From positions 1-31,180 of IMG/VR virus record IMGVR_UViG_3300030451_003017: a stretch of DNA of 31,180 bases; one strand, 5' to 3'. Shown here piece after piece: positions 1-31,180 of the stretch. Both the position numbers and the translations under genes were made by a program. The notes under the pieces are model-generated. The model had not been told where the DNA came from, did no database searches, and saw only the letters and a list, made by a program, of their open reading frames with translations. Source of the stretch: a virus. How positions within the stretch are numbered: the first letter of the stretch is position 1; every line of letters begins with the position of its first letter.

Positions 1-201
1 TTACGAAAGCAAAGGGCACAAAGACGTATGGCAACAGCTAGTTTGGTTGCAATGGCTACTTTTACTATTGCTATGTTTTTGGTCGATATCGAAAGAGTTA
101 AAGCACTTGCCGATATTAGTAATCTTTTTTATATCACAGGTGGCGGCATTGTGTCTGTATATATGGGTGCATCAGCCTTTATGAGTAGGAATGGTAAATG
201 A
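1..201 (+). CDS. Small two-span membrane protein, holin-like, 5' truncated
   Basis: The frame is open from the left edge, so the N-terminus is missing unless the ATG at 28 is the true start (57 residues). The visible product has a basic start (LRKQRAQRR), then two hydrophobic stretches, roughly MATASLVAMATFTIAMFLV and LFYITGGGIVSVYMGASAF, separated by a short charged loop, and ends in SRNGK. Small size, two membrane spans and position just before a holin and a lysozyme suggest a holin or other lysis-linked membrane protein. The stop overlaps the next start as ATGA. The function is inferred from topology and context only; no family is recognised with certainty. Confidence 0.6.
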   Translation, partial: LRKQRAQRRMATASLVAMATFTIAMFLVDIERVKALADISNLFYITGGGIVSVYMGASAFMSRNGK

Positions 202-392
202 AACCTGCTTTTTTGCTCATGTGTTATTTAGCGGGAAATCCTGCAGGTACGTTGCATTTTCAGTCAGTAAAGACAGCCGACTATTTTAAGTCATACTTAG
301 ATGGTCAAACTGTTGTGATTGGGCAAGAGCAAAAACAGTATGATTGTTTTGTAAAGTTGGTTAAAGTCAATAAAGAAATGAGATTATGGTAA
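198..392 (+). CDS. Hypothetical 64-residue protein
   Basis: This short ORF starts inside the stop of the preceding gene (ATGA), the usual translational coupling in this genome. The first 20 residues (MKPAFLLMCYLAGNPAGTLH) are mildly hydrophobic, but there is no clear signal-peptide cleavage site; the rest is mixed and soluble-looking. No Shine-Dalgarno sequence of note is visible, so translation would depend on coupling. No family is recognised. It is accepted as a gene because it fills the gap exactly between two overlapping neighbours on the same strand. Confidence 0.45.
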   Translation: MKPAFLLMCYLAGNPAGTLHFQSVKTADYFKSYLDGQTVVIGQEQKQYDCFVKLVKVNKEMRLW

Positions 393-907
393 TGTTTAAT
401 ACAATGATTATAGAAAACTTTTTTGACAATTTTGAATTATTACAGCCAGAATTAAAGAAAATACCATTATATAGTCAAGCAGATTATCCTGAAAAAAAGG
501 CAGACGAAGAATGGCCGGGCAAAAGAAGTGAGGCTTTGTTTCTAACAAATAAATTTTTATTTCAATTAATTATTAAAGAATTAAGAGCAAAAAGCCAAAA
601 TGAACTATTATCAAGAAATCAATTTAATATGCATGCTCATTTACATCTACGATTAAATGAAGATAATCAAAAAGATTTTATACATACAGATGTTTGTGAC
701 TTAACAATGATTGTATATTTATCAGAAACAAATTTAAAATCTGGCACAGCAATTTATAATGATAAAAATGAAGAAACACAATCTGCAAAATTTGTACAAA
801 ATACTGCATTTTTGTTTGCAGGCAAACAATTACATGGTTCAATATTAAATTATGGTGATAATATTGATAATGGAAGATTAACATTAAATTGTTTTATAAA
901 GTTTTGA
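386..907 (+). CDS. 2OG-Fe(II) oxygenase-like protein
   Basis: The 173-residue product looks like a prolyl-hydroxylase-type 2-oxoglutarate, Fe(II)-dependent dioxygenase. The probable metal triad is H100-x-D102 (in FIHTDVCDLTMIVYLSE) with distal H150 (KQLHGS), and R164 (NGRLTLNCF) would bind 2-oxoglutarate. Spacing and the surrounding beta-strand pattern fit the double-stranded beta-helix fold. Such enzymes hydroxylate protein side chains or small substrates; the substrate here is unknown. The gene overlaps its upstream neighbour by 7 bases; an in-frame ATG at 392 is an alternative start. It sits between lysis genes, an unexpected place for a metabolic enzyme. Family assignment rests on motif reading. 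Confidence 0.7.
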   Translation: MVMFNTMIIENFFDNFELLQPELKKIPLYSQADYPEKKADEEWPGKRSEALFLTNKFLFQLIIKELRAKSQNELLSRNQFNMHAHLHLRLNEDNQKDFIHTDVCDLTMIVYLSETNLKSGTAIYNDKNEETQSAKFVQNTAFLFAGKQLHGSILNYGDNIDNGRLTLNCFIKF

Positions 908-916
908 GGTAAACAT

Positions 917-1312
917 ATGATACAAGCATTAATAGGTCCTGCAACTAAACTATTAGGTAAGTTCATAGAGGACAAAGACACTAAGAATAAAATTGCTTTT
1001 GAGTTAAGTACAATGGCAGAGAAACATGCTCAACAACTTGCTATGGCTCAAATAGAAGTCAACAAAGCTGAAGCACAATCTGGCTCAATATTTAAAGGTG
1101 GGTGGCGGCCTGCAGTTGGTTGGATATGTGCGATTGCGTTTGCCTATCATTTTATAATTAAAGATTTAATAATGTTTATTTGTGGAGTTGCAGGCTTAGA
1201 ATTACCAGATTTGCCTGAATTTGATATGGGTACACTTTTAACTGTTCTTGGTGGCATGTTAGGAATTGGTGGATTGCGGACATATGAGAAGCAGAAGGGA
1301 TTAACAAAATGA
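917..1312 (+). CDS. Holin, 3TM gene-transfer-agent type
   Basis: This 131-residue protein resembles the 'holin of 3TMs, for gene-transfer release' family (PF11351). An amphipathic N-terminal helix (residues about 1-60, rich in K, E, A and Q) is followed by GGWRPAVGWICAIAFAYHF, a second hydrophobic stretch (LIMFICGVAGL) and a third (LLTVLGGMLGIGGLRTYEK). The GGWRP motif just before the first span and the closing GGLRTYEK are typical of this group. It would form the inner-membrane lesion that releases the lysozyme encoded 115 bases downstream. A GAGGT ribosome binding site lies 6 bases before the ATG. The stop overlaps the next small gene as ATGA. Confidence 0.85.
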   Translation: MIQALIGPATKLLGKFIEDKDTKNKIAFELSTMAEKHAQQLAMAQIEVNKAEAQSGSIFKGGWRPAVGWICAIAFAYHFIIKDLIMFICGVAGLELPDLPEFDMGTLLTVLGGMLGIGGLRTYEKQKGLTK

Positions 1313-1431
1313 AATTTGATGATAAAATTATTTGTGATAGGTGCAAAGTTGCAATGAAAAAGGTAGAATTAAAAGACGTATATAAATGTCCAGTATGCAA
1401 TGTAATAGAGAATAGGAGATTATCAAAATGA
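1309..1431 (+). CDS. Tiny zinc-ribbon protein (40 residues)
   Basis: This is a 40-residue ORF with two CxxC pairs: C9-D-R-C12 and C27-P-V-C30, 14 residues apart, as in a zinc ribbon. It begins inside the stop of the holin gene (ATGA) and its own stop overlaps the lysozyme start (ATGA), so it is locked into the lysis operon. The remainder is basic and polar. It probably binds one zinc ion; whether it touches nucleic acid or protein cannot be said. It is easily missed because of its size. Confidence 0.7.
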   Translation: MKFDDKIICDRCKVAMKKVELKDVYKCPVCNVIENRRLSK

Positions 1432-4768: not shown

Positions 4769-4776
4769 GAAGTAAT

Positions 4777-13467: not shown

Positions 13468-14370
13468 CTAAACTTTTTCTAATTTTTTCCACTCAGCAGA
13501 GTTAATCATATCTACAACTGAACTCTGTCTGTCTTGCTCAACCATATACTTTTTGGTCTCATCCTTTTGAATATCATTAAGATGAGTAGACCATGCAGTT
13601 GCTGATTGATATGCACACCATAGAGAGCCTTTAGCACCTTTTCTGCCATAATCACCCTGACCATGAATTTGTGTGACTTCTTCGTTGTATAAACCCATAA
13701 GAACAGATAACTGCTTCTTATTGATTTGATTTACACCTGCTAACCTAGAACCTGCAGATAATTTTTGCTTGGCAATAGTTTTGCTAAACATATCTGCAAC
13801 ATAGTCATCTTCAACTTTAGTATCCCACCATCTGTTAAATCTTTCTGTTTCATCAGTAACAGATTTGACAGCAGATTGTATCTTCTTATTTGATTGCTCA
13901 ATATCAAAAGACTTAGTGTGCTTACTAGCAGTATAAGCTAACTTTTGACCAGATACTAATGTATTGAAGCAAACATGATTTAACCAACCAAAAAATGCCT
14001 GAAACTTCCATTTACCATTGTAACTATTTCTGGCAACATATTTTAAAGATAAATCATGCTTACCAATTTTAGTATTATGGTCTTTGAAAACCACTTCCAT
14101 TTTAGCCATTGCTCCATTCTCGAATGAATCCAATTTCATTTCTGCATTATTAAAAGAAATACCTGCTTGCTTTATTTTTTGTAAAGCACCATCAAAAGCA
14201 TCAACATGATTAATAGGTCTGTACTTTGACTTGATAATACCTAAAGCATCATCAGTATCAGTCCTTACAATCTTCTGAGCCATTTCTCTAGGGATTGTAG
14301 GTATCTCTTTGATAGAGATAGGAAAATTTAATTTTTCCATTTCTTCTTTATAAAATTTTGTATCTAACAT
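13468..14370 (-). CDS. DUF932 phage/plasmid-like protein
   Basis: The 300-residue product matches the DUF932 family pattern: an N-terminal RTDTDDALGIIKSKYRPINH segment (about residues 36-55), a mid region with MKLDSFENGAMAKMEVVF, a SLKYVARNSYNGKWKFQAFF segment, and a C-terminal LWCAYQSATAWSTHL region. Members are found on phages and plasmids; their biochemical role is not established. It has a good AGGAG site before the ATG and is the last large gene of the minus operon before the lipoprotein. Confidence 0.8.
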   Translation of the reverse strand: MLDTKFYKEEMEKLNFPISIKEIPTIPREMAQKIVRTDTDDALGIIKSKYRPINHVDAFDGALQKIKQAGISFNNAEMKLDSFENGAMAKMEVVFKDHNTKIGKHDLSLKYVARNSYNGKWKFQAFFGWLNHVCFNTLVSGQKLAYTASKHTKSFDIEQSNKKIQSAVKSVTDETERFNRWWDTKVEDDYVADMFSKTIAKQKLSAGSRLAGVNQINKKQLSVLMGLYNEEVTQIHGQGDYGRKGAKGSLWCAYQSATAWSTHLNDIQKDETKKYMVEQDRQSSVVDMINSAEWKKLEKV

Positions 14371-15117: not shown

Positions 15118-15133
15118 CACTTATTGTGTAATT
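15113..15133. promoter_or_regulatory. Operator-like palindrome overlapping the -35 element
   Basis: The plus-strand sequence GTCAACAC-TTATT-GTGTAATT is an imperfect palindrome with the same CAC-N5-GTG core as the site at 19927-19949 and with the same GTGTTGAC arm containing the -35. It also overlaps the last codon of the upstream 430-residue gene. A dimeric repressor here would block the promoter. Confidence 0.55.
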
Positions 15134-16424
15134 ATTTTAAGTTATAATCTTTTTCCACAATACCTAACTCTTTCTTGCCAACAACACAGTCTTTAACCCA
15201 TGTTTTTTTGACCACAGAGCCGTTTTCATCACGAAAGTGTCTAAAGTGACCTCTTCTATCGTGTTGCCTCTTAGGGTTGCCTTTACCAACGAATTTAGAC
15301 CTAATTACTTTTCTGACCTGATTGTTGGATAAATTAATGTCCAGAACTTTATATTCATTCCTAGGCACTCTTCTTCCAAGCTTAGTATGAACAATCTTAC
15401 TATCAGGCTGAACCACTCTTTGCTCATGTAAGTTTTGATTGATGATTGAAAACAGAGATATCAAAAATCTGGCATCACCTTCACAACTTGTCATCCATTG
15501 CTCTTCATGGAAAGTCATTTCATCTTTACTATAGCCTTTTTCAAAATGACCTTTTGGTATTTGCCAATGCATAGCTGAAGATTGAGCAGGAGATATTCTA
15601 TAGCATATTTCTTTGTAGCAATTCCACTCATGGTTATTGTCATAAGAAACTAGCTCCCTTGCTCTATCAATATTTATTTGCATGTTATTCCTAGTTTTAG
15701 TTTCAACATTATATTTCTTAAAAAACTTAGGAGGCATAAACTGCATTAAATACCAACCAGATAATAATTTAGAACCAACACCTAAACATTTTATTTTCAT
15801 TGCATCTTCAGACATTTCATCAAGCCACTCTGGAGGAAACTCTTTGAGTTGCATCTGCTTTGCTATCTCATCTTTAAAACTTGGTGTGTGATTTCTAATT
15901 ACTGCACACATGCTTGTTGTGTAAAATTTATTGATAAAAGCTTTATTAAAAGCATCAGCATCAAAAGATTTACTTGGGTCTTTCTTTGTCCTCTCATCAA
16001 TAAAATACCATGATTCATATAAGTTATAATTATCTCCAATAGGGTCAGTAAAGTTTTTGATGTGATAGCCAAGCTTATCAGGATAATCATTAATATCAGA
16101 TGGATATTCTCTATCAGGTCTTCCTTCCCAATATTTTTTTACATATTCCTGCCTAGCTAGTTCATCCCATTCAATCCAAACATTATCAAATGGCATATGT
16201 AAATTATCTAACATCTCCAACATAACTGATGGTTTTTGAGTTGAAATCTCATAAGCCTTTTCAACTATTGAATTAGTAATAACAAACTTCTTGGCATTAA
16301 TTAGCTCAAGTTGCTTTTCTCTAATCTTGGCATCTGCAATAGACCCTCCTTGGTAGAGGGCTATTGCTCTTTTAGGCTGAGATAATCCTGAGATTATCTC
16401 TGAACATAAGATTGGTTTAGTCAT
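15132..16424 (-). CDS. Large conserved phage protein of unknown function
   Basis: The 430-residue product has no nuclease, ATPase or polymerase motif I can recognise. Visible landmarks are NLHMPFDNVWIEWDELAR (about residues 73-90), CYKEICYRISPAQSSAMHW in the middle, and a C-terminal HDRRGHFRHFRDENGS followed by KKTWVKDCVVG. The His/Arg-rich H-x-x-RGHFR-x-F signature and the N-terminal WIEW motif recur in alphaproteobacterial phage proteins of similar size located in early regions. A GGGAGA site precedes the ATG. It is a candidate for host takeover or DNA metabolism, but nothing proves it. Confidence 0.7.
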   Translation of the reverse strand: MTKPILCSEIISGLSQPKRAIALYQGGSIADAKIREKQLELINAKKFVITNSIVEKAYEISTQKPSVMLEMLDNLHMPFDNVWIEWDELARQEYVKKYWEGRPDREYPSDINDYPDKLGYHIKNFTDPIGDNYNLYESWYFIDERTKKDPSKSFDADAFNKAFINKFYTTSMCAVIRNHTPSFKDEIAKQMQLKEFPPEWLDEMSEDAMKIKCLGVGSKLLSGWYLMQFMPPKFFKKYNVETKTRNNMQINIDRARELVSYDNNHEWNCYKEICYRISPAQSSAMHWQIPKGHFEKGYSKDEMTFHEEQWMTSCEGDARFLISLFSIINQNLHEQRVVQPDSKIVHTKLGRRVPRNEYKVLDINLSNNQVRKVIRSKFVGKGNPKRQHDRRGHFRHFRDENGSVVKKTWVKDCVVGKKELGIVEKDYNLK

Positions 16425-17094: not shown

Positions 17095-17420
17095 ATTTTC
17101 ATTGCACGAAAATTTGCATTCTGAGTTCTCCAGATTTCTATTTTAGCTAAAGCTGTTTCTCTAAAAAATTGATTCTTATAATGTTTTTCTGAAGCAATCT
17201 TAACTGCTTTTAAATGTTGAATATAATCCTCATGTGCTTCAGCTTCTCTAGTTTGTGCTGATATGGGCAAGTCACTATACTTTTGCATAAGTTTAGCTCT
17301 GAGTGGCTTTGTAAAAGCATTTAAATAATCTAAATTAGCTCTATCTTTTGCACATTCAACTGCACTCTTTTGTAACCAATCCATAGCTTTGTGAATATCA
17401 TTTTCATTAACTATCTCCAT
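17091..17420 (-). CDS. Conserved small phage protein with IExWRTQ motif
   Basis: The chosen start (17420) has GGAG six bases upstream; an in-frame ATG at 17432 lies within the HNH gene end and a much longer reading to 17567 would overlap it by 160 bases. The 109-residue product is helical, with YLNAFTKPLRAKLM, REAEAHEDYIQHLKAVKIA and a closing KIEIWRTQNANFRAM. The EAxAxxxxxY and WRTQ pattern recurs in early-region proteins of proteobacterial phages near recombination genes; no biochemical role is established. It overlaps the upstream gene by 14 bases. Confidence 0.7.
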   Translation of the reverse strand: MEIVNENDIHKAMDWLQKSAVECAKDRANLDYLNAFTKPLRAKLMQKYSDLPISAQTREAEAHEDYIQHLKAVKIASEKHYKNQFFRETALAKIEIWRTQNANFRAMKI

Positions 17421-17760
17421 CAGGCTCTCCATAATTAAAATTGTGCCAAAGCATTTGAGAAACACCACGACCATAATTCTCTGGTAAATTAAATAAAGTC
17501 CAGAACTTATCTTCATTACCATATTTATCATGTAAAAGTGCGTGATGTTTGTAACACAATGGCACACAGTTATTATCTCTGGCTCTCATTCCCATTCCTC
17601 TAAATCCATCCCAAGGTTTAAGAAGGTGATGTGCTTGAACACCACCTCCACAACTTGATGATACTGTATCTGAAGAATGAGACATAAGACAGCAATTATG
17701 TTTTGCAACATATTCCATAAATGGTTTGTTACTAGCTTGCTTCTTCTTGGATTTCTTCAT
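17407..17760 (-). CDS. HNH-like endonuclease
   Basis: The 117-residue protein has a His-metal finger signature: VQAHHLLKPW (H44-H45), RDNNCVPLC (N63-N64) and KHHALLHDKYG (H72-H73 and H77). The C-x-x-H-H end pattern and the preceding Gly-rich CGGGVQAHH are typical of the small phage HNH-like/DUF968-type nucleases encoded in recombination regions. The product is likely a DNA endonuclease that resolves or trims recombination intermediates. It overlaps the upstream HTH gene by 29 bases without a visible ribosome binding site, so coupling is likely. Confidence 0.75.
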   Translation of the reverse strand: MKKSKKKQASNKPFMEYVAKHNCCLMSHSSDTVSSSCGGGVQAHHLLKPWDGFRGMGMRARDNNCVPLCYKHHALLHDKYGNEDKFWTLFNLPENYGRGVSQMLWHNFNYGEPDGDS

Positions 17761-18050: not shown

Positions 18051-18521
18051 TTAAAATGGTATTTCATCAGTATCTAAATTTGATGTATCAATATCATTGT
18101 AAATACCTTTATCAGATGGGGTGTATTTATTTTTGTTACTATCAGGTTGAGCACTATCAAAAGCTCTTACTTTTAGGCTAGTGTAGTTATTTTTTTCTTC
18201 ACCATTGCCATATTCTTCCTTCCAAGCTGAAATAGTATATCCACCATTATCAACAATATTATTAACAACACCTTTCGCATCTGGGTCTTTTTCTCCAGAC
18301 TTCAAGTTATTTTTTTTGATTGTACCTATCTCACGATAAATACCAACCATACGTTCTCCATCTTTGTTAAACCTAGATATACCCACGATTCGCATCTCAT
18401 TGCCATCAATGTTTAGTTTGCCTTGTTGTATAAGACTAAACTCAGGCTTGCCATCCTTTTTCTTAGGTATTGCCCACAAAACACCACTATTGGTATTGTT
18501 GTATGTTTTACTTTTGTCCAT
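18051..18521 (-). CDS. Single-stranded DNA-binding protein-like
   Basis: The start at 18521 was chosen because AAGGA lies 8 bases upstream; an ATG at 18539 is in the ERF gene. The 156-residue product has a beta-rich body (VLWAIPKKKDGKPEFSLI, KVRAFDSAQ) and the hallmark of SSB proteins, a disordered acidic C-terminus ending in DTDEIPF, which recruits partner enzymes. Location directly after the ERF annealing gene supports a role in coating ssDNA during recombination and replication. It overlaps ERF by 14 bases. The N-terminal domain is not an obvious E. coli-type SSB OB fold. Confidence 0.75.
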   Translation of the reverse strand: MDKSKTYNNTNSGVLWAIPKKKDGKPEFSLIQQGKLNIDGNEMRIVGISRFNKDGERMVGIYREIGTIKKNNLKSGEKDPDAKGVVNNIVDNGGYTISAWKEEYGNGEEKNNYTSLKVRAFDSAQPDSNKNKYTPSDKGIYNDIDTSNLDTDEIPF

Positions 18522-19047
18522 TTGTATTTTCCTTTCCACTAGCTAAATTACCATCATCATCCTGACCTAAACCATATATTGATTGTAGACCATATCTTTT
18601 GGCATAAGTTATTGCAGAACCCATTTTCTGTGGGTCATCTTTATCAGAGCCTTTTATAAGAACTGGAACTCTACATTCAACTACACCAAGAAGAATATGA
18701 TTTACTACAGTTCTAACCCAAATATCTCTTTCAAGAACTTGAGCAGTTGTAATTGATTTAGTTCCATCTTTCATAATGTCTTCTCTTGATTTAGTAACCA
18801 GATGAGTTTCAAACTCAACAAATTGATTAAATTTTAAACCAAATTGCGTTCCTTGATTTACTGCATTTATTACTGAAGTTAAATCAGCATATGTTGATTT
18901 AAAATAAGGATTACTACTATCCTTCAATGCTGTGATGTTTAAATCCTGAAACTTATTAAAAGCTTCAGTTATGTTTTTTGGCATACCTTCTGGCATGCCT
19001 TCATCTACGATAGTTTGGTTAGTAACCACCTTTTCTTCGTTCTTCAT
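18508..19047 (-). CDS. erf: ERF-family single-strand annealing recombinase
   Basis: The start at 19047 was chosen: AAGGA is 5 bases upstream and the ATG overlaps the exonuclease stop as ATGA. The product (179 residues) has the ERF signature (PF04404): an N-terminal helix leading to NPYFKSTYADLTSVINAV, a strand set (VLERDIWVRTVVNHILLGVV), and QKMGSAITYAKRYGLQSIYG followed by LGQDDDGN. ERF proteins form rings on ssDNA and anneal complementary strands, in P22 for genome circularisation. Together with the upstream nuclease and downstream SSB it forms a complete phage recombination module. Confidence 0.9.
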   Translation of the reverse strand: MKNEEKVVTNQTIVDEGMPEGMPKNITEAFNKFQDLNITALKDSSNPYFKSTYADLTSVINAVNQGTQFGLKFNQFVEFETHLVTKSREDIMKDGTKSITTAQVLERDIWVRTVVNHILLGVVECRVPVLIKGSDKDDPQKMGSAITYAKRYGLQSIYGLGQDDDGNLASGKENTNGQK

Positions 19048-19832
19048 AATATTCCTTTCCATGCTTGAACTTTATCTTTTACTTCGTTAATCATTTCTTC
19101 TGACCACTTCCAATCATCTGCATCAGGCAGAACCATGGAAGCTAATTCTTCTTTATCACTACTGATAGATAAGAATTTCATTATACTCATAGCAATGTAT
19201 TTTACTTGCTTCTGGTAAATCTCTATATCTTGTTTGGTTATTTCAAATATTTTATGTTCTTTTGGACTAGCATAAAATACCTCTGACTTTTTATCTTTGT
19301 AATGCATTGCATAAATAGATAGTTGTCTTTTATTTGATGCTGAAGCTTTACTTGGCATTCGTGCTGTTGTTTTTAAATCTACAACTGTATCAGCAAAAAC
19401 AAAGTCAATATAACCTATAATTGGTATTGGCAGGTCTTCTAATTGTATCTCAACCTTTTCCTGATAAGCTTCTAAATCTTCATATTTAAAGTTTCTATTT
19501 ACAACTGAGCCATAGTTTTTCAATTCAATATTTTCTTTGTGTCTTTTTGCATCACCAAAATCAACACCACCAAAATTACAAAGTTCATTAAATTTACTCT
19601 CAGCTACGTCTTGGTCATAAACACCATCATAATATCTTTGAGCCAAAGCATGTTCTATAGAAGTACCTCTATGCATTGAGGCTGACGAATCGCCAGTTAT
19701 CTTAAATAACTTTTCTGCAATGTATTTAGATGGGCTTTGTATCCATGTTGTCATAGAACTATGTGACAACCAAAAAATATCGTGATTAAAAAATGGATTG
19801 TTACTTTTCATTCTTCGTTCTTCTTTCTTCAT
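19044..19832 (-). CDS. PD-(D/E)XK exonuclease (RecB/Cas4-like)
   Basis: The 262-residue product carries the RecB-like nuclease motifs: HRGTSIEHAL (H61 by the long start), IGYIDFVF (D143), VDLKTT (D152-x-K154) and QLSIYAMHY (Q170-x-x-Y174). It would resect dsDNA 5' ends to produce ssDNA for ERF. It is the first gene of the minus operon, right after the divergent control region. No strong ribosome binding site is seen for the ATG at 19832; an ATG at 19811 (MKSNNPFF) preceded by purines is equally possible. The leader contains a long stem-loop (19837-19885). Confidence 0.9.
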   Translation of the reverse strand: MKKEERRMKSNNPFFNHDIFWLSHSSMTTWIQSPSKYIAEKLFKITGDSSASMHRGTSIEHALAQRYYDGVYDQDVAESKFNELCNFGGVDFGDAKRHKENIELKNYGSVVNRNFKYEDLEAYQEKVEIQLEDLPIPIIGYIDFVFADTVVDLKTTARMPSKASASNKRQLSIYAMHYKDKKSEVFYASPKEHKIFEITKQDIEIYQKQVKYIAMSIMKFLSISSDKEELASMVLPDADDWKWSEEMINEVKDKVQAWKGIL

Positions 19833-19979: not shown

Positions 19980-20213
19980 ATGAGGCTAAAAGAATTTATA
20001 AAATCTAATGGTTATAATAATAAATCTTTTGCTAATGCTTTAGGTACAAAGCTTAGAACTTTAGAAGCTTGGAGCAGAGGTGAGAGATTGCCAAGATGGC
20101 AGGAAGCCAAAAGGATTTTTGCCTTTACTAACAACGAAGTTACAGGTCAAGATTTGTATGACGAACAAATACAGAAACAAGAAACAATTTTACAAAGGAA
20201 TAAAATTCGATAG
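19980..20213 (+). CDS. Cro/C1-like helix-turn-helix regulator
   Basis: The 77-residue product starts MRLKEFIKSNGYNNKSFANA and contains an XRE-type helix-turn-helix: SFANALGTKLRTLEAWSRGE, followed by RLPRWQEAKRIFAFTNNEV. The start at 19980 is preferred over an ATG at 19926, because the 18 extra residues (MSTQKVFTTKKNYFICYC) would be encoded across the promoter. No Shine-Dalgarno sequence precedes it, in line with a leaderless message. It is the first gene of the plus operon and very likely binds the operator at 19927-19949. No lytic-lysogenic partner or integrase is visible, so it is best viewed as an early-to-late switch. Confidence 0.8.
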   Translation: MRLKEFIKSNGYNNKSFANALGTKLRTLEAWSRGERLPRWQEAKRIFAFTNNEVTGQDLYDEQIQKQETILQRNKIR

Positions 20214-20481
20214 TAAAAAAGAATTACAAAGATATTTAATTTTAGAAGAGATGCAAATGAAAAAATTAATAAGTGACTTAGAGACACAACCTGTGTTTCC
20301 ATTGTTAGTAAATGGGATTAAGATTGGCAGATATACTGCTGATTTTAAATACAAAAATCAAGATGGTGAAGTTGTGATTGAAGATGTAAAATCTAAAATT
20401 ACAAAGACCAGAGACTATATGTTGAGGAAAAAAATCCTAGCGACTTATAATCCTCCTATTGTTATTCAGGAGATACTATGA
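20158..20481 (+). CDS. DUF1064 nuclease-like protein
   Basis: The start at 20158 (MTNKYRNKKQFYKGIKFDSK) was chosen, because it keeps the conserved N-terminal block; a longer reading from 20080 is a frame over the HTH gene. The 107-residue product has the DUF1064 pattern (PF06356): KGIKFDSKKELQRYLIL, LETQPVFPLLV, RYTADFKYKNQDGEVVIEDV with K following (D-x-K-S). The family has a PD-(D/E)XK-type arrangement (E at KKE, D at ADF, E-D-V-K) and is thought to act like a Holliday-junction or structure-specific nuclease. It overlaps the regulator by 56 bases and shares ATGA with the next gene. Confidence 0.8.
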   Translation: MTNKYRNKKQFYKGIKFDSKKELQRYLILEEMQMKKLISDLETQPVFPLLVNGIKIGRYTADFKYKNQDGEVVIEDVKSKITKTRDYMLRKKILATYNPPIVIQEIL

Positions 20482-21118: not shown

Positions 21119-22810
21119 ATGCAAATTAGAGAGAAGTTATTACAAGAAGGTATCAGAGTTGATACTAATTATGGGCAACAAAAAGTGACTTGTCCAAAGT
21201 GTTCACACACTAGAAAAAACAACAGAGAACCATGCCTTTCTATAAACATAGAAGATGATTTAGCTGTATGGCATTGTCATCATTGTGAATGGAAGGGTTC
21301 TGTGCACGAAAATATAAGGGGCAATGATTATAAGCCAAAACCAATAGATAGAAAAAATGTCATACCTTTAATACCAAAAGAAAGAGAGTTATCTCAGGAG
21401 GCTCACAATTGGTTAAATGGCAGAAGGATTAGTCCAACAACTTATGCAAAGATGGGTATATATTCTGCAAATGGCACATTATGTTTTCCATATTATTTAG
21501 ATGGTGACATTGTAAATGTGAAGCACAGAACAAAAGATAAAAGATTTTATCAAGAGAAAGATGCTAAAAAAACTTTGTATAACATAGATAGTCTTAAAGA
21601 AATATGGGATATGAAGAAGGTTATTTTTGTTGAGGGAGAAATGGATGTGTTATCACTTATGGAAATAGGTTTTCATAATGTGGTTTCATTGCCAGATGGT
21701 GCACCTAAAACAGCCAAGTTTGACATGCATGATAAAAGATTTTCTGCTTTTGAACAATCTCAATGGATATTTGAAGCTGAGGAAGTAATCATAGCCACAG
21801 ATAATGATGAGGCAGGAAACTCCTTGAAACTTGAGTTGTTGCATAGATTTGGCAGGGATATATGTAAAGTTGTCCATTTTCCTAAACATGATGATAAACA
21901 ATTGAAAGATGCAAATGAAGTGCTAATTGCTCTTGGCAATGATGCATTGAGAAGATGTATTCTAAATGCAAAGGATTTTCCAATACAAGATGTACATACA
22001 GCTAGAGAATATAAAGACCAGATACAAGATATGTATGATGGCAACGAACAAAAAGCTATCTCAACTGGATTTGAAAAGTTAGATGAAATTTATAAAGTTA
22101 TGCCTAGTACATTCAATCTAGTTACTGGAATACCTAATCATGGTAAATCAAACTTTTTAGACCAGATACTTATGAATTTAGCAGAACAACAGCATTGGAA
22201 ATTTTTTGTATTTTCACCAGAGCATTCAACTAAAAATCATCTAAGAAGACTGCTTGAGAAAAGATGCAGAAAGCCATTTGATATTGGTGCTTATGAAAGA
22301 ATAAATCAACTGGAACTAAATGCAGGTATGGACTTTTTAGATTCTCATTTTAAGTTTCTGGAGACATCTGAGGATATACCAACCATAGATTATATTTTAC
22401 AGAAAGCTAAATCAGCTAAACAAAGATATGGTGTCAAAGGAATAATCATTGACCCATTTAATCAGGTTTCAGCAACCAGAGATGTAGGCAAAAGAGAAGA
22501 TGAACACATAAGAGATATCATTGCTAAGTGTCAAAAGTTTGCAAGAAATCATCAGGTAGTAGTCTGGATGGTAGCACATCCACATAAGCTACATAGAAAT
22601 GATGCAGGTGTATTACCACCACCAGACCTTTATCAGGTTAGTGGTTCTGCACATTGGGCTAACATGTGTGATGTAGGATTAGTTATACATAGAGATTTTG
22701 AAAACAATAGTACAAAAATAATTACCAGAAAAATTAGAGAGCAAGGTATTTATGGTGAGATAGGTCAATGTGAGTTTACATTTAATTATAGGACCAGATG
22801 CTATGAGTAG
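21119..22810 (+). CDS. Bifunctional DNA primase-helicase (T7 gp4-like)
   Basis: The 563-residue protein has an N-terminal zinc-binding domain (C25-P-K-C28 and C53-H-H-C56), a TOPRIM domain (EGEMD at 172-176 and ATDNDEAG with D228 and D230), and a C-terminal RecA-like hexameric helicase with Walker A GIPNHGKSN (337-345) and Walker B GIIIDPF (441-447). It would prime lagging-strand synthesis and unwind the fork in the cytoplasm. No phage DNA polymerase is seen in the window, so it may serve a host replicase. A GGGGT purine site precedes the ATG. Confidence 0.95.
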   Translation: MQIREKLLQEGIRVDTNYGQQKVTCPKCSHTRKNNREPCLSINIEDDLAVWHCHHCEWKGSVHENIRGNDYKPKPIDRKNVIPLIPKERELSQEAHNWLNGRRISPTTYAKMGIYSANGTLCFPYYLDGDIVNVKHRTKDKRFYQEKDAKKTLYNIDSLKEIWDMKKVIFVEGEMDVLSLMEIGFHNVVSLPDGAPKTAKFDMHDKRFSAFEQSQWIFEAEEVIIATDNDEAGNSLKLELLHRFGRDICKVVHFPKHDDKQLKDANEVLIALGNDALRRCILNAKDFPIQDVHTAREYKDQIQDMYDGNEQKAISTGFEKLDEIYKVMPSTFNLVTGIPNHGKSNFLDQILMNLAEQQHWKFFVFSPEHSTKNHLRRLLEKRCRKPFDIGAYERINQLELNAGMDFLDSHFKFLETSEDIPTIDYILQKAKSAKQRYGVKGIIIDPFNQVSATRDVGKREDEHIRDIIAKCQKFARNHQVVVWMVAHPHKLHRNDAGVLPPPDLYQVSGSAHWANMCDVGLVIHRDFENNSTKIITRKIREQGIYGEIGQCEFTFNYRTRCYE

Positions 22811-22955: not shown

Positions 22956-23139
22956 GCTATATGACAATGGACTAACTGATGAACAGCAGAAGTTAGTAGA
23001 TGCTAGATATGAAGAGTTGATGGCAAAGGTTAAGGAAGTAAATCCAAAAGCTTATGAACTATTGAGACAAACTAAACCATTAGATGAAAAGATATTTGGA
23101 TTAGAAGAAGAAGAACAGTTAGATATGTTTGGAGGATGA
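22948..23139 (+). CDS. Hypothetical 63-residue acidic protein
   Basis: The start at 22948 overlaps the preceding stop by 8 bases; the frame opens earlier at 22882, but that start lies inside the zinc gene. The product is helical (TDEQQKLVDARYEELMAKV) and ends in an acidic tail (FGLEEEEQLDMFGG), a pattern seen in clamp- or partner-binding peptides (QLDMF is like a beta-clamp motif, QLxLF). It may thus tether to the host sliding clamp, but this is a guess from five residues. Confidence 0.6.
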   Translation: MNKLYDNGLTDEQQKLVDARYEELMAKVKEVNPKAYELLRQTKPLDEKIFGLEEEEQLDMFGG

Positions 23140-23140
23140 C

Positions 23141-24301
23141 ATGTTGAAGAACCCAGAGAAAGAAGATTTACAAGATAAGTTATTTCCTATCCCTTATGAC
23201 TGGGAGGAAGAGTGGAAGGATATGCCAGAATATTATAACTGGCAAGAAGCTGACCCAAAAATCACAGCTACATTTAAATTTAGGAATGAAGAAGACTTCC
23301 AAAGATTTAAAAAGATTATTAGTGAGCATGGATATGATGGAGCTAAAGTATTTGATGGAGAACAATCACTAACAAAAAAGCAGGCATGGTTTCCACATAA
23401 TGAACAGCCAAGATTTTATAGATATAAAAGTAAAGAACAGATGAACCCAAAGTATCCTATCTACATAGTGAGTAAAGGTAGATACGATATTAACCCAACA
23501 TCAAGAGCTTTAATTAAAATGGGTGTACCATTTAGAATGGTTGTAGAGGAGCAAGAGTACTGGCAGTATTGTAACCTTGTAGGCAAAGAAAATGTATTGG
23601 TATTACCTAAAAGATATCAAGACGAATATGATACCTTCTGGAAGGATGATGACCCAAGAGTAGGACCGGGTCCTGCTAGAAACTTTGCATGGGAGCATAG
23701 TATAGAAGAGGGCTTTGATTATCATTGGGTAATGGATGATAACATAGATGGCTTTAGAAGGTTCAATCAAAACATGCAGGTCTGGTGTGAGAATGGATTT
23801 GTCTTTTCACTAACAGAGAAGTTTGCTGAAAGATATGAGAACTTAGCTCAGGTAGGATTTCAGTATGATAAATTTATACCTACAAAAGATTTAAGACCAC
23901 CTTACACATTAAACACAAGAATATATAGCTGTCTGCTTATAAAGAATGACATACCTTTTAGATGGAGAGGTAGATACAATGAGGATACAGATTTGTCATT
24001 AAGAATATTGAAGTCTGGATTATGTACTATGCAAATGAATGCATTTCTTCAGGATAAGAAAACTACTACGAAAATGAAAGGTGGTAATACAGAGGAGTTC
24101 TATGATGAAGAAGGAACTAAAAACAAATCACAAATGCTTAAAGACATGCATCCAGATTTAGTAGAGTTGTCTTATAGATTTAATAGACATCATCACTTTG
24201 TAGATTACTCACCATTTAAGAAAAACAAACTTATAAAAAAGAAAAATATACATATAAAAGATGGTGTTAATGACTATGGGATAGAGCTAGTAAAGATATA
24301 A
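23141..24301 (+). CDS. TET-associated-type glycosyltransferase (TAGT-like)
   Basis: The start at 23141 is fixed by GGAGG five bases upstream. The 386-residue product has an N-terminal domain of about 90 residues (ITATFKFRNEEDFQRFKKII and KKQAWFPHNEQPRF), then a GT-A-type domain opening YPIYIVSKGRYDINPTSRAL, with RMVVEEQEYWQY, GPGPARNFAWEHS and HWVMDDNIDGF (probable metal-binding D-D), and RGRYNEDTDLSLRILKSG. This is the layout of TET-associated glycosyltransferases, predicted to sugar-modify oxidised or hydroxymethylated DNA bases. No enzyme making a hydroxylated base is visible in the window. Confidence 0.8.
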   Translation: MLKNPEKEDLQDKLFPIPYDWEEEWKDMPEYYNWQEADPKITATFKFRNEEDFQRFKKIISEHGYDGAKVFDGEQSLTKKQAWFPHNEQPRFYRYKSKEQMNPKYPIYIVSKGRYDINPTSRALIKMGVPFRMVVEEQEYWQYCNLVGKENVLVLPKRYQDEYDTFWKDDDPRVGPGPARNFAWEHSIEEGFDYHWVMDDNIDGFRRFNQNMQVWCENGFVFSLTEKFAERYENLAQVGFQYDKFIPTKDLRPPYTLNTRIYSCLLIKNDIPFRWRGRYNEDTDLSLRILKSGLCTMQMNAFLQDKKTTTKMKGGNTEEFYDEEGTKNKSQMLKDMHPDLVELSYRFNRHHHFVDYSPFKKNKLIKKKNIHIKDGVNDYGIELVKI

Positions 24302-24582: not shown

Positions 24583-25063
24583 AAAACGATTGAAAAAAGT
24601 AGGAAGACCAAAAATAGAGCTAGATTTAAATGAATTAGAAAAATTATCATCTTTAAATTGTACTATGCCAGAGATTGCACACTTCTTTGATATACCATTA
24701 AGAACATTAGAAGACAAATATACAAATGATGAAAAGGTAAGGGCAACCATAGATAGAGGTAGAGCAGATGGTAAGATATCTCTTAGAAGGCAACAAATAC
24801 AGATAATGAATGATGGTAACCCTACAATGGCTATCTGGCTTGGTAAGCAGTTATTAGGGCAAACAGAGAGAACAGAGATATCTCAGGACATTAAAATTGA
24901 AGAAAGAAAGGTACTTGATTTAAGTAGACTTACAGATAATGAACTCAACACTATTGAAAGAGCACTTAAATATGCCGTCGTTGACGCAGATACAAGCAGA
25001 AAAGATGAGGAGGTCATTGAGCCTATTCATCAAAAAAGCTTGGTCAACGATAGAACCAAATAG
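24566..25063 (+). CDS. terS: Terminase small subunit
   Basis: The start at 24566 has GGAAAG four bases upstream; a GTG at 24554 is an alternative. The 165-residue product has a basic start (KKRLKKVGRPKIEL), an HTH (LSSLNCTMPEIAHFFDIPLR then TLEDKYTNDEKVRATIDRGR), a segment typical of small terminases with DGNPTMAIWLGKQLLGQTER, and an acidic C-terminus. It recognises the genome's packaging site and regulates the large subunit. Position just before the large subunit gene, with 92 bases overlap, supports this. Confidence 0.85.
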   Translation: MKQSTKKRLKKVGRPKIELDLNELEKLSSLNCTMPEIAHFFDIPLRTLEDKYTNDEKVRATIDRGRADGKISLRRQQIQIMNDGNPTMAIWLGKQLLGQTERTEISQDIKIEERKVLDLSRLTDNELNTIERALKYAVVDADTSRKDEEVIEPIHQKSLVNDRTK

Positions 25064-26444
25064 ATATTTCTACGATAACTGGCACATAGATGCAATATCA
25101 GACCATCTACAAGCAGTTGTTCAGGGAGATATAAAAAGATTAATTATAAATATTCCACCAAGACATATGAAGTCTATATCTGTATCTGTTGCATTACCTG
25201 CATGGACATGGACATTAGACCCAAGTAAAAAGTTTTTGTTTGCATCATATGCTCTATCATTATCAATCAGAGATAGTGTTAAATGCAGAAGGCTTATAGA
25301 AAGTCCATGGTATAAAAGTTACTTTGGAGAAATGTTTGAACTCACATCTGACCAGAACCAGAAACAAAGATTTGAAAATGATAAGACAGGTATAAGACTA
25401 GCTACATCAGTTGATGGAGCACTAACTGGTGAAGGTGGTGACATTATACTGGTTGATGACCCTCACAATGTTAGAGAAGCAGAATCAGGAACTGTTAGAG
25501 AAGGTGTGCTTGACTGGTGGAATCAAGCTATGCAAACAAGACTGAATGACCCTAAAAATGGTGCTTTTATAATTATAATGCAAAGAGTACACGAAAATGA
25601 TTTAACTGGTCATATACTGGCTAATGAATATGATGACTGGGAACATTTGTGTTTGCCTGCAAGATATGAGACTAACCATCCTACTCCTGTAAAATCTAGC
25701 TTAGGGTTTGTCGACCCAAGAACAGAAGAGGGTGAACTCCTATGGAAAGATAGAATAGATGAAAAAACTTTATCTAATCTTGAGGTGTCACTTGGTTCAT
25801 ATGGTGCATCTGGTCAGTTGCAACAAAGACCTATGCCTAAAGGTGGTGGTATATTGAAAGCAGAATGGTGGCAACCATGGACAGATAGTAAATTGCCAAA
25901 CATAGAATATTTGATACAATCATATGACACAGCCTATAGCACAAAGGATGCGTCAAGTTACTCTGCAAGAACAACATGGGGAGTGTTTAAACAAGATGGA
26001 TATTATAATACAATCGTTATTGATATGTGGTTTGATAGGGTTTCATACCCTGACCTTAGACGAATAGCACAAGAAGCATATGAAGATTATGAGCCTGATG
26101 TTGTGTTGATAGAAAAGAAAGCTAGTGGTCAAAGTTTACTACAAGATTTACGAATGGCAGGAATACCAGTTTTAGAGTATATGCCAGATAGAGATAAACA
26201 AGCCAGAGCACATGCATGTTCTGCATTACTAGAGGATGGTCGTGTTTATTACCCTGAAGGCAAAAAGTGGGCTAAAAATCTAATAGATATATGTTCTGCC
26301 TTTCCAACTGGAGATAATGATGATATAGTTGACACATGTACTCAAGCTTGGCTAAGGTTGAGAAAAGGTTGGTTTATAACTCATTCCACAGATTATGATG
26401 AGGATGAGGTAACTGAAAGAAAGAGGCTAACACTTTATGGCTAA
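24972..26444 (+). CDS. terL: Terminase large subunit
   Basis: The start at 24972 (MPSLTQIQAEKMRRSL) is preferred; ATGs at 24939 and 25005 are in frame. The product (490 residues) has an ATPase domain with Walker A IPPRHMKS (61-68) and Walker B DIILVDDPH (157-165), and a C-terminal RNase H-like nuclease with SYDTAYS (D319), VVLIEKKASG (E381) and GDNDDIVDT (D454). It packages DNA into procapsids and cuts the concatemer. Sequence style matches terminases of P22-like and marine podoviruses. Confidence 0.95.
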   Translation: MPSLTQIQAEKMRRSLSLFIKKAWSTIEPNRYFYDNWHIDAISDHLQAVVQGDIKRLIINIPPRHMKSISVSVALPAWTWTLDPSKKFLFASYALSLSIRDSVKCRRLIESPWYKSYFGEMFELTSDQNQKQRFENDKTGIRLATSVDGALTGEGGDIILVDDPHNVREAESGTVREGVLDWWNQAMQTRLNDPKNGAFIIIMQRVHENDLTGHILANEYDDWEHLCLPARYETNHPTPVKSSLGFVDPRTEEGELLWKDRIDEKTLSNLEVSLGSYGASGQLQQRPMPKGGGILKAEWWQPWTDSKLPNIEYLIQSYDTAYSTKDASSYSARTTWGVFKQDGYYNTIVIDMWFDRVSYPDLRRIAQEAYEDYEPDVVLIEKKASGQSLLQDLRMAGIPVLEYMPDRDKQARAHACSALLEDGRVYYPEGKKWAKNLIDICSAFPTGDNDDIVDTCTQAWLRLRKGWFITHSTDYDEDEVTERKRLTLYG

Positions 26445-28860
26445 AGAACCTAATGTAATCCCATTTCAAGAGGGAGCACCTGCAGATAATCTTGAAGTAG
26501 AAGAGATTGAAAATGATGATGTTCTCATAGGAGATAAATCACTAGATGATGTTGTTGAGGTTGTATCAGAACATGACAGCAATATTGCTGAACAATTAGA
26601 TGAGCTTGAATCAGCTAGAAAAGCACAGATGCTTATCGAAGCATTTGATAGTGATAAGGAAGCTAGAAGCGAATGGGAAGAAAGATATAAGCAAGGATTA
26701 GAAACACTAGAGCCTGATGGTGGCTTAACAGAAGAAGAAGAGCAAAGAGCAACTAGAGGATTATCTACTGTGGTTCATCCTATGATTGCTGAAGCGGCTA
26801 CCCAGTTCAATGCAAAAGCTATAGCAGAACTTTATCCATCAGGAGGTCCTGTAAAAACTACAATAGTTGGAGAACCAACAGAAGAGCTAGAAGACCAAGC
26901 AAGAAGAGTTCGTGATTACATGAACTACCAAATCACACAAGAGATGCCAGAGTATTTTCCAGATTTAGATACAATGCTGTTTCAGTTACCATTGATAGGA
27001 CACGCATTTAAGAAAGTTTACTTTGATAGTAATTTGGAAAGACAATGCTCACAGTTTGTTAAGGCAGAAGATTTTGTTGTGTCACCAGACAGTAAAGACT
27101 TACAAACTTCAGCAAGATATTCTCATATCATTAGAATGCCTAGAAATGATTATAATAGATATGTAGAAAGTGGATTTTATCTACCTATAAAATATATAGG
27201 TAGTGAGGAAGACCCTGCAGGAGATATTGGCTCAGATATTGAGGGTGTTAGTACATATGAAGATACTGAGTACAACGAAACAGTAACTCTGATTGAAATG
27301 CATGTTTATGAAAATTTTGATGGCATAGATGGGTACACAGATAACGAAGACAATGAAGATATTGTGGCATTCCCATATGTTGTAACAATAGACTACGATA
27401 GTCAGAAGATTGTTGCAGTTAGAAGAAACTGGGAAGAAGATGATGAAAAGAAACTAAGACAGGATTATTTTGTATCCTACAGGTTTTTGCCCGGTACAGG
27501 ATTTTATGGTTTTGGCTTGTATCACATGATAGGTGGGCTAGGTAAAGCGGCTACTGGGTCATTAAGAGCATTACTTGATAGTGCGGCTTTTGCAAATATG
27601 CAGGGTGGTTTTAAATTAAAAGGTAGGGTTACAGGTGGTGAGCTACAGGTCAATCCCGGTGAGTTTGCAGATTTAGATGCTACTGTAGATGATGTAAACA
27701 AAGCTATTATGCCATTACCATTTAAAGAACCATCAGGTACTTTGTTTCAGTTAATGAATGCAATCGTGCAAGCAGGTCAAAGATTTGCAAGTACTGCAGA
27801 TTTAAATGTAGGAGATGTAAATCCAAATGCACCAGTTGGCTCAACAGTTGCACTTATCGAGCAAGGTAGTAAAGCATTTAGTGCTATTCACAAAAGATTA
27901 CATTATTCACAAGGACAAGAATTTAAATTAATAGCAAAAAACAATGCAAAGTTTTTACCTGAGCAGTTTGAGTTTTCATTGTCAGGTGTTACTGCATTTA
28001 TTAATTCAACAGACTTTGACGCTAAGATAGACATAATACCAGTATCAGACCCAAATGTATTCTCTACAGCACAAAGGATTGCACAAGCTCAATCTGTTTT
28101 ACAACTATCACAAGCACAGCCAAATCTTTATGACCAGTATGAGGCACATAAAAGAATGCTTGAGGCAATCAGAATACCAAACATTGATGAGGTATTAGAG
28201 AAGCCACAGGAAGCCTCAAGGATAGACCCAGTTGATGAAAACATGACAGTTATGTATGGCAAGCCAATCAGGGCATTTCCTGAGCAGGACCACGATTCGC
28301 ATATCGCTGTGCACATGCAATTTTTACAAGACCCATCACTAGGAGGTAATCCCGGTGCTAGGAACTTGCAACCAATATTGATAGCACATATAGCAGAGCA
28401 CATAGCGTTATTGTACAGACAAAGAATGCAATCTGCTATTGGTATGGACTTAGCACCATTACCAGATATAAGAGACCCTAAGTTTCAGTTTAAGGATATA
28501 TCACCAGAGCTTGATATGCAGATATCACAAAGAGCATCTGAAATTGTTAAACAATCACCACAGATGGAGCAGATACAAGCTATCATGCCTAATCAGCAAC
28601 AGCAGGGTGGTAATCCATTAGACTTAGCAAGACAACTTGCACAGTTAGAAGCACAAATGCTACAAATGAAAACACAACAAGAGTTAGCTATAGAAGGTGC
28701 TAAAGCTAAGCAGGACATGGCTATAAAAGACGCTGAAGCCAAGCAGAAGATTGCAATAGATAATGCAAAAGCACAACAAGAATTGATTGCTAAAGTGAAA
28801 AAATTAGAGACAGAATTACTAATAATCCAACAAAAAAACCAAGCTAAACAAGGAGTATAA
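26437..28860 (+). CDS. Portal protein
   Basis: The 807-residue product is a large podovirus portal of P22-like plan. An acidic N-terminus is followed by STVVHPMIAEAATQFNAKAI, a typical portal segment, a long mid region including VSYRFLPGTGFYGFGLYHMI, ASTADLNVGDVNPNAPVGST, and a C-terminal barrel-like coiled coil rich in Q, A, K and E (QLEAQMLQMKTQQELAIEGA). It forms the 12-fold ring for DNA entry and joins head to tail. It overlaps the terminase gene by 8 bases. Confidence 0.9.
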   Translation: MAKEPNVIPFQEGAPADNLEVEEIENDDVLIGDKSLDDVVEVVSEHDSNIAEQLDELESARKAQMLIEAFDSDKEARSEWEERYKQGLETLEPDGGLTEEEEQRATRGLSTVVHPMIAEAATQFNAKAIAELYPSGGPVKTTIVGEPTEELEDQARRVRDYMNYQITQEMPEYFPDLDTMLFQLPLIGHAFKKVYFDSNLERQCSQFVKAEDFVVSPDSKDLQTSARYSHIIRMPRNDYNRYVESGFYLPIKYIGSEEDPAGDIGSDIEGVSTYEDTEYNETVTLIEMHVYENFDGIDGYTDNEDNEDIVAFPYVVTIDYDSQKIVAVRRNWEEDDEKKLRQDYFVSYRFLPGTGFYGFGLYHMIGGLGKAATGSLRALLDSAAFANMQGGFKLKGRVTGGELQVNPGEFADLDATVDDVNKAIMPLPFKEPSGTLFQLMNAIVQAGQRFASTADLNVGDVNPNAPVGSTVALIEQGSKAFSAIHKRLHYSQGQEFKLIAKNNAKFLPEQFEFSLSGVTAFINSTDFDAKIDIIPVSDPNVFSTAQRIAQAQSVLQLSQAQPNLYDQYEAHKRMLEAIRIPNIDEVLEKPQEASRIDPVDENMTVMYGKPIRAFPEQDHDSHIAVHMQFLQDPSLGGNPGARNLQPILIAHIAEHIALLYRQRMQSAIGMDLAPLPDIRDPKFQFKDISPELDMQISQRASEIVKQSPQMEQIQAIMPNQQQQGGNPLDLARQLAQLEAQMLQMKTQQELAIEGAKAKQDMAIKDAEAKQKIAIDNAKAQQELIAKVKKLETELLIIQQKNQAKQGV

Positions 28861-28861
28861 T

Positions 28862-30459: not shown

Positions 30460-30740
30460 GTAATATGGAAAGAAACGAAGAATTGTTCATGGAAAAGATG
30501 GGCTTTCCAAGAGATTCAGAGGGATTAGAGCTAACAGATGAGCAGTTAGTAAATTTTCTGTTACTTTGCTACCAAGGTAAAATGTTAGGACCAGAAGACA
30601 TGGAAGAAACTGAAATGCAAGAAGGCATGGAAGAAATGGATGATGGTAACGTCAAAGTAAAGATTATCAAGATGGACAGTTCTAACGCACATGACATGAT
30701 GAACGATATTTTAGGTTCATCCAAGCCAGAGATAATGTAA
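30438..30740 (+). CDS. Acidic Met-rich small protein, second copy of the partner type
   Basis: The start at 30438 has AGGAG six bases upstream and lies 22 bases inside the preceding gene. The 100-residue product has a helical N-terminal half (ELTDEQLVNFLLLCYQGKML) and an acidic Met-rich middle (EDMEETEMQEGMEEMDDGN). The same arrangement follows the related gene at 5299-6687. No catalytic or metal motif is visible. Confidence 0.65.
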   Translation: MEHAIEISNMERNEELFMEKMGFPRDSEGLELTDEQLVNFLLLCYQGKMLGPEDMEETEMQEGMEEMDDGNVKVKIIKMDSSNAHDMMNDILGSSKPEIM

Positions 30741-30877
30741 TGCCATTTAGTAAGTATTCAGGCAAACAAAAAGCACTAGCAAGAGTTGCAAAACCTAGAA
30801 ATAAAATTACAGGTGCAGACTTTGCTAAATTGAGAAAGAAGAAAAAAAATGGCAAGAAAAAAAGCAAAAAAGTCTAG
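30740..30877 (+). CDS. Tiny basic protein (45 residues)
   Basis: The ORF shares TAATG with the preceding stop. The product is strongly basic, with FSKYSGKQKALARVAKP and a Lys-rich end (LRKKKKNGKKKSKKV). It overlaps the next gene by 29 bases in a different frame in an A-rich stretch. Such Lys-rich mini-proteins near phage head genes may neutralise DNA or bind the capsid, but this is inference. Confidence 0.6.
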   Translation: MPFSKYSGKQKALARVAKPRNKITGADFAKLRKKKKNGKKKSKKV

Positions 30878-31034
30878 TAAAAGCAAATCAATACCCACTA
30901 ATAAAGCTTTGTATGCAAAGGTAAAGGCAGAAGCAAAGAGAAAATTTGATGTCTACCCATCCGCTTATGCAAATGCATGGTTAGTGAGAACCTACAAAAA
31001 AAGAGGTGGTGGGTACAGAACAGGTAAGGCTTAG
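30849..31034 (+). CDS. Small basic protein, DUF5872-like
   Basis: The 61-residue product has a Lys-rich N-terminus (ARKKAKKSSKSKS) and then NKALYAKVKAEAKRKFDVYP with SAYANAWLVRTYKKRGGGY. The 'A-L-Y-x-(K/R)-V-K-x-E-A-K-x-K-F-x-x-(Y/W)-P-S-A-Y' pattern is seen in widespread phage and large-virus mini-proteins (DUF5872 style). It probably binds nucleic acid. The start codon lies in an A-rich stretch inside the previous gene. Confidence 0.75.
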   Translation: MARKKAKKSSKSKSIPTNKALYAKVKAEAKRKFDVYPSAYANAWLVRTYKKRGGGYRTGKA

Positions 31035-31036
31035 TC

Positions 31037-31180
31037 ATGGCTAAGGCTAGAGGAGGTCTTACTAAGTGGTTCAAAGAAGATTGGGTTGATATATCAGCAC
31101 CTAAAAAAGGTGGTGGGTTCAAGAAATGTGGCAGGAGTAAGGCAAAGGGTAGCAAAAGAGGCTATCCTAAATGTGTTCCT
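31037..31180 (+). CDS. Small basic Cys-containing protein, 3' truncated
   Basis: The 48 visible residues begin MAKARGGLTKWFKEDWVDIS and continue with GGGFKKCGRSKAKGSKRGYP and KCVP at the window edge. The TKWFKEDWVDI start and C-G-R ... YPKC-V-P end match the other half of the DUF5872-type pair that often accompanies the preceding gene in marine phages. The two cysteines may bind zinc. The gene continues beyond the window. Confidence 0.7.
   Translation, partial: MAKARGGLTKWFKEDWVDISAPKKGGGFKKCGRSKAKGSKRGYPKCVP

Follow-up and report, generated by a model that had tools for sequence, protein, structure and literature searches.

GATC is completely absent from the IMG/VR virus record IMGVR_UViG_3300030451_003017, whose 31,180 bases were analyzed in full and are referred to here as the window, and it is almost completely absent from a whole clade of related phages. 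The window is a fragment of a tailed-phage genome that carries terminase, portal and other structural genes together with a replication/recombination module. Elimination of a recognition site is a known phage strategy, of which this clade is a new, clade-wide and nearly complete case; in the open-access literature, which our search covered in part, we found no publication on the clade's GATC loss. The sites were probably purged by avoidance of a type II restriction enzyme of the hosts, in phages that carry no recognizable methyltransferase of their own.

GATC is absent from the window and codons are chosen around it

A first-pass annotation, made from the letters alone, had reported zero GATC in the window where 90 to 100 copies would be predicted. 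Our counts bore this out: neither strand contains a site, while 96.4 were expected under a maximum-order Markov model and 96.5 from base composition. Two hundred first-order Markov resamples of the window put the expectation at 76.0, with a range of 47 to 99. We also ran the check proposed in that annotation, a codon-preserving shuffle (n = 200) in which the proteins and the overall codon use of the script-called open reading frames (ORFs) of at least 90 amino acids were kept fixed; it predicted 72.3±6.1 sites as opposed to the 0 counted (z = −11.8). At 0/96 (observed/expected, O/E, as for all paired counts below), GATC qualifies as eliminated by the wording of PMC6286503, which asks for 15 or more expected sites and an O/E of less than 0.1; O/E rather than the CB statistic of that study was the measure used here. 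Collectively, these counts confirmed that the absence of GATC from the window is real.

The route by which GATC is avoided can be read from the codons. Aspartate preceding a codon that starts with C is encoded by GAC in 54 of 54 cases, as opposed to 95 of 530 before A, G or T, where GAT accounts for the remaining 435. The switch from GAT to GAC had been noticed on both strands, and it indeed holds for 47 cases in plus-strand and 7 in minus-strand genes. All five examples originally cited for it contain GACC, at positions 5836, 8203, 10224, 25458 and 28288, although the coordinates given for them were 2 to 10 bases off. Similarly, none of the 94 isoleucines that follow a G-ending codon uses ATC, and none of the five serines that follow a codon ending in GA uses TCN. 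In the same codon shuffle, several other words were low in the window, namely GCGC (0 vs 15.7), GGCC (2 vs 19.1), ACGT (6 vs 28.9) and AATT (231 vs 299), none of them as strongly as GATC. TCGA was weakly low, at 16/18 by the Markov model and 13 vs 23.9 by the shuffle.

GATC avoidance extends across one phage clade

The window's own record ends with the window itself, and we therefore counted GATC in its IMG/VR relatives, which include contigs of 51 to 54 kb. The sites were absent or nearly absent from the contigs G045 (0/154), G038 (0/138), G027 (1/138), G003 (1/167), G016 (0/107), G017 (0/78), G031 (2/93) and G044 (0/85). Other relatives are rich in GATC: contig G004, whose TerL is 79% identical to that of the window, has 208/253 at a G+C content of 35.8%, and the roseophages CRP-901 and CRP-902 have 345/304 and 329/280, respectively. 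A 138-amino-acid protein of the structural region is 98% identical between G004 and G003.

To place the trait on a phylogeny, we confirmed at least 560 TerL-related stretches, kept 80 of them and built trees by a quick method from rows of at least 440 amino acids, calling a row depleted when its O/E was under 0.25. In a first tree of 91 rows, the depleted row L097 fell outside the clade, beside the long-branched L122. A second tree dropped six rows (the long outgroup rows L122 and L116 to L118, and L074 and L075, which repeated contigs present in other rows), and in its 85 rows the depleted ones grouped as one 24-row clade with a Shimodaira-Hasegawa-like approximate likelihood ratio test (SH-aLRT) support of 99.6. 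The clade totals 26 GATC against 1419 expected. The remaining 61 rows hold 2467 against 2516, and they include L205 (1/14), the lone depleted row outside the clade; two changes on the tree thus suffice to explain the distribution. Within the clade, 22 of the 26 sites belong to a single subclade (L125, L166 and L173 to L176; 22/199).

The annotation had framed the finding around SAR11-type hosts and had asked for a comparison with pelagiphages. The first 50 kb of HTVC023P and HTVC027P, cultured SAR11 phages that belong to the wider group, hold 182/171 and 182/182 GATC, respectively, and the Roseobacter relatives are normal as well, so that a SAR11 setting is not supported. As CRP-901 and both HTVC phages have normal numbers, GATC was most simply lost in the clade rather than gained elsewhere.

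Sites were lost mainly by synonymous changes

We then followed the GATC sites of G004 into the clade member G003 over 18.5 kb of alignable DNA that is 75% identical. Only 1 of 58 sites was retained. Other common palindromes persisted more often, namely TGCA (51/153 retained), CATG (25/59), TTAA (54/138), AATT (44/139) and ATAT (65/161); fewer were kept of AGCT (5/35), CTAG (4/21) and ACGT (2/16), and none of TCGA (0/21), which is an avoided word in its own right. Among 60 codon-aligned GATC sites, 1 was retained, 41 were lost by synonymous changes and 18 with an amino acid change; the most frequent change was GAT to GAC preceding a proline codon. The strong, long-term selection proposed in the annotation is thus supported by a loss that is clade-wide and mostly synonymous. 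Recent transfer from the sister group was considered for the single GATC of G003 (position 48884) and discarded, as the gene is 88% identical to that of G004 and 87% identical to that of the GATC-free G045.

Other palindromes are avoided in the clade and in its relatives

GATC is not the only avoided word. In a pool of 18 contigs (526,729 bases) chosen for being GATC poor, GATC stood at 4/1552, GGCC at 69/572 and TCGA at 137/741; these were the three lowest of all 256 tetramers by O/E, and all three are palindromic. The pool omits L125, L166, L173 to L176, G037, G040 and G043, and it includes G022, G039 and G041, which lack a TerL match and were admitted through their replication genes.

In the same phage group, the set of nearly erased palindromes differs from one related lineage to the next. 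L201 to L203 and L219 to L221 (G+C content, 45 to 48%) have normal GATC and hold GTAC at 1/84 and CCGG at 1/59. L134, L140, L157, L210, L214 and L226, whose TerL is 79 to 80% identical to that of the window, are likewise normal in GATC and hold GCGC at 0/44 and TCGA at 0/45. In the more distant seawater phage 023Pt_psg01 (L118, MW574966, positions 1 to 50000), CATG is completely eliminated (0/118), and no other palindromic tetramer falls below 0.81 of its expected number. These groups were picked after the counts had been viewed and serve as examples rather than as a survey.

Avoidance of host restriction is the probable cause

We consider host restriction the likely explanation. The hosts would carry a type II enzyme that cuts unmethylated GATC, similar to DpnII, MboI or Sau3AI, and the phages would have removed the sites chiefly through synonymous changes, most often from GAT-C to GAC-C, after the clade had split from the relatives that still carry normal numbers. 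The weaker avoidance of GGCC and TCGA would then reflect further enzymes that were met less often. That the agent was a host restriction enzyme, that it was of this type and that it acted constantly across the clade's hosts is what we infer from the pattern of missing sites.

The phages themselves appear to offer no protection by methylation. Among the called proteins of at least 120 amino acids in nine clade records, the motif [DNS]PP[YFWH], which marks amino-methyltransferases and does not cover cytosine-C5 enzymes, was absent except for one DPPH in a 1053-amino-acid protein of G003. No methyltransferase was detected among the window proteins submitted to PHROG, Pfam and PADLOC.

On the host side, a TerL-alignment scan of genome contigs revealed no clade members; the five loci found were 45 to 77% identical to the TerL query and all normal in GATC. 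A search with the helicase matched 15 of the 385 genomes that share their class with a Rhodobacteraceae record (best E value, 9.6e-74) and 11 of the 369 that share theirs with a Gammaproteobacteria record (best E value, 4.7e-22), none of them close. The DpnII family PF04556 scored above its cut-off in 9 of the 385 and in 4 of the 369 genomes, small ones included, and one such locus was adjoined by D12 and N6_N4 methyltransferase genes; an enzyme of this type is thus available in a few Alpha- and Gammaproteobacteria, whether or not they are hosts of these phages.

Several observations weigh against host restriction. The GATC enzyme of the clade's hosts is putative. G004 tolerates its 208 GATC without a recognized methyltransferase (18 proteins examined by Pfam, plus the motif scan); probably, its hosts lack the GATC enzyme. 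Restriction systems vary patchily among strains, and despite this the avoidance spans TerL identities down to 82%. The pressure was not uniform, as the subclade with 22/199 shows, and some phages that combine a related helicase with a terminase of another kind, or one that was not seen, are partly depleted, namely L127 (18/66), L129 (17/54), L139 (28/90), L155 (22/76), G037 (3/24), G040 (11/21) and G043 (4/12). Furthermore, GGCC (10/81) and TCGA (0/45) are also low in the GATC-normal group of L134, so that the avoidance of these two palindromes is not linked to GATC avoidance. Finally, GATC-poor genomes also arise under Dam/MutH, as in T7 (6/141).

The last point leads to the strongest alternative, a Dam/MutH-type system in which the host methylates its DNA by Dam and a MutH-like endonuclease nicks unmethylated phage GATC and so selects against the sites without classical restriction. 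Beside T7, phiX174 is entirely without GATC according to the accessible text of PMC5014478, the effect in our phages is strongest at GATC, and the 1.8% of expected sites left in the clade (26/1419) is near the 4% left in T7. However, such a system would be expected to act on GATC alone, and in the 18-contig pool GGCC and TCGA, which run low in GATC-normal relatives too, stood at 0.12 and 0.19 of expectation. A Dam/MutH-type system explains neither this loss in the very same contigs nor the near-elimination of GTAC and CCGG, of GCGC and TCGA or of CATG in related lineages, and T7 itself shows no comparable loss of GGCC (68/88) or TCGA (111/133). We therefore think a Dam/MutH-type cause improbable. 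The annotation had left the agent as either a restriction enzyme or a methyl-directed system; of the two, restriction is favored because GGCC, TCGA and the palindromes of the other lineages are avoided, too.

A little less probable still is methyl-directed restriction by a DpnI-like type IIM enzyme, for which the host's Dam would methylate phage GATC before it is cut. In PMC6286503, which treats GATC as a type IIM site, each of the 46 phages with a host that carries the corresponding enzyme showed under-representation of GATC, a finding that also speaks for host restriction as proposed above; GATC methylation was detected in genomes of marine Caudovirales (PMC9516812), as far as the available parts of these papers go. 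This mechanism requires that the phage DNA become methylated during infection; site counts alone cannot separate it from avoidance of a DpnII-type enzyme.

Phage-borne factors and sequence bias

A different possibility is that a GATC nuclease encoded in the clade's shared module destroys host DNA and that the phage exempts itself by having no GATC. In its favor, the avoidance is clade-long and roughly tracks one replication module, and the window encodes HNH-like, exonuclease-like and resolvase-like proteins. One candidate was a 430-amino-acid protein, u430, as all fetched loci with a u430 match are depleted (O/E of 0 to 0.31) and the loci L134 (85/86) and L136 (74/79) are normal and lack it. 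Among the loci with exonuclease and DUF932 matches and no u430, however, are not only these two and L154 (41/65) but also the depleted L164 (1/22), and u430 is not supported as the cause. (L197 is the contig of L154 again, and L224 that of L134.) The u430 protein matched no PHROG, Pfam or PADLOC family. Its AlphaFold2 (AF2) model, built from an 18-row alignment, reached a predicted local distance difference test (pLDDT) score of 73.4 and had no PDB match at an E value of ≤0.001; BFVD gave three matches at that threshold, to uncharacterized phage proteins, the best being one of Caulobacter phage CcrSC (E value, 2.6e-10; template modeling [TM] score, 0.39 to 0.42). The protein is 97 to 98% identical among the window, G001 and G003, and 45 to 53% identical to that of the remaining carriers.

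The helicase module is not a sufficient cause: the GATC-normal L134 has a related helicase (63% identity) and exonuclease (38%), DUF932 and, by eye, HNH-like (ORF 5785 to 6150) and DUF1064 genes, and relatives of the primase/helicase occur across GATC-free, partly depleted and GATC-normal phages. A TAGT-family glycosyltransferase, matched in 21 of 31 helicase-related records, was rejected as the cause because GATC-free G045 (0/154) yielded no match to it. Structural genes were dismissed since G004 shares many of them and yet has 208 sites. Moreover, the avoidance of other palindromes would require another cause. A self-exempting phage nuclease is thus unlikely, and we assign it a very small probability.

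An origin in mutation bias, composition or shared codon use alone, without selection acting on GATC, has next to no probability: GGCC and several CG-containing words are low too, and several palindromes fall below the codon shuffle even in the GATC-normal G004 (GTAC, 35 vs 134), but the composition-keeping codon-shuffle and Markov models still predict 72 to 96 sites in the window, and G004 keeps 208/253 at a like G+C content.

Gene content of the window

The features of the window that bear on the questions above are listed in Table 1. By DNA, the nearest relatives in the phage collection searched are CRP-901 and CRP-902, at 66.8% over the terminase and portal genes. The portal protein is 74% identical in amino acids to that of the GATC-rich G004. 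Judging from the relatives and from the sample numbers, the source samples were probably marine.

TABLE 1 Genes of the window discussed in the text, with their best family matches
Feature	Position	Strand	Match (E value)
TerL, gene behind the clade tree	24939..26444	+	phrog_38 (6.5e-94)
Portal/head-to-tail connecting protein, no GATC	26437..28860	+	phrog_1216 (7.5e-34)
DNA primase/helicase, replication module	21119..22810	+	phrog_239 (3.6e-87)
Exonuclease-like protein, recombination module	19044..19832	−	phrog_69, exonuclease (2.3e-11)
Erf-like single-strand annealing protein	18508..19062	−	phrog_2324 (5.3e-23)
DUF1064/Holliday-junction-resolvase-like protein	20080..20481	+	phrog_190 (7e-30); PF06356 (9.1e-16)
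u430, 430-amino-acid protein, candidate phage-borne GATC factor, unsupported	15132..16424	−	
DUF932 protein, conserved in the module	13468..14370	−	PF06067 (2.2e-14)
HNH-like (DUF968) protein	17407..17760	−	phrog_96 (1.5e-5); PF06147 (1.2e-7)
TAGT-family glycosyltransferase	23129..24301	+	PF20691 (3.3e-42)

TAGT stands for TET-associated glycosyltransferase; no TET or hydroxymethylase family was found among the window proteins scanned with PHROG and Pfam. In another helicase-related contig, G037 (L108; GATC, 3/24), positions 5299 to 7216 beside the helicase module hold an S-adenosylmethionine (AdoMet) decarboxylase-like gene, a weak match to N6_N4 methyltransferase and a PAPS-reductase-domain (DndC-like) gene; from these matches, the region is possibly a DNA-modification cluster.

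Comparison with known systems

If restriction avoidance is the true cause, the enzymes encountered in uncultured hosts could be read from the missing sites, which would predict the enzyme to seek in those hosts, and cutting at GATC would have pressed enduringly on an entire clade of phages.

The nearest cultured relatives of the clade are CRP-901 and CRP-902 (OQ401623 and OQ401624), phages of Roseobacter CHAB-I-5 described in PMC10149686. Their structural genes are syntenic, as read from the G003 gene table against both phages, and their TerL is 73% identical to that of the window. They differ in that GATC is normal to enriched, the G+C content is 45 to 46% and the replication genes are unrelated: the clade's replication-module genes had no match in CRP-901 or CRP-902 by blastp (E value, 1e-4) or gene clusters, and the clade thus did not show the bifunctional primase-polymerase and CRP-type helicase that mark the CRP-901-type genus. 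Both roseophages also carry a gene annotated as a DNA methyltransferase. Its products, gp08 of CRP-901 (L018, 2064 to 2624) and gp10 of CRP-902 (L020, 2554 to 3108), had no Pfam match at an E value of 0.001 and matched PADLOC mads_2 weakly.

A further marine parallel is the depletion of GANTC in pelagiphages, where, in the portion of PMC9516812 available, phages cluster on a tree by the density of one methylation motif. The motif is a different one. Where it was counted in the clade (window, 24/54; G003, 46/89; G038, 59/76), GANTC is below expectation but does not approach zero, and the GATC-normal CRP-901 has a similar ratio (62/116).

T7 and phiX174 resemble the clade in their strong loss of GATC; in contrast, they infect enteric hosts with Dam/MutH, and T7 kept most of its GGCC and TCGA. 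A similar pattern is seen in Staphylococcus phage K, whose first 50 kb hold GATC at 0/112 and GGCC at 0/13. That phage is unrelated and infects a host group with known Sau3AI and Sau96I, enzymes that the available text of PMC6346686 reports in staphylococci in connection with a different staphylococcal phage.

A precedent is the work of Rusinov et al. from 2018 (PMC6286503) on the elimination of restriction sites in dsDNA phages, in the accessible part of which a palindromic restriction site may likewise be almost absent from a genome and GATC is among the sites avoided by phages with an enzyme-encoding host. The host enzymes were known there and are putative here; the present case differs further in that a phage tree shows where the trait occurs, next to relatives that kept GATC or nearly eliminated other sites.

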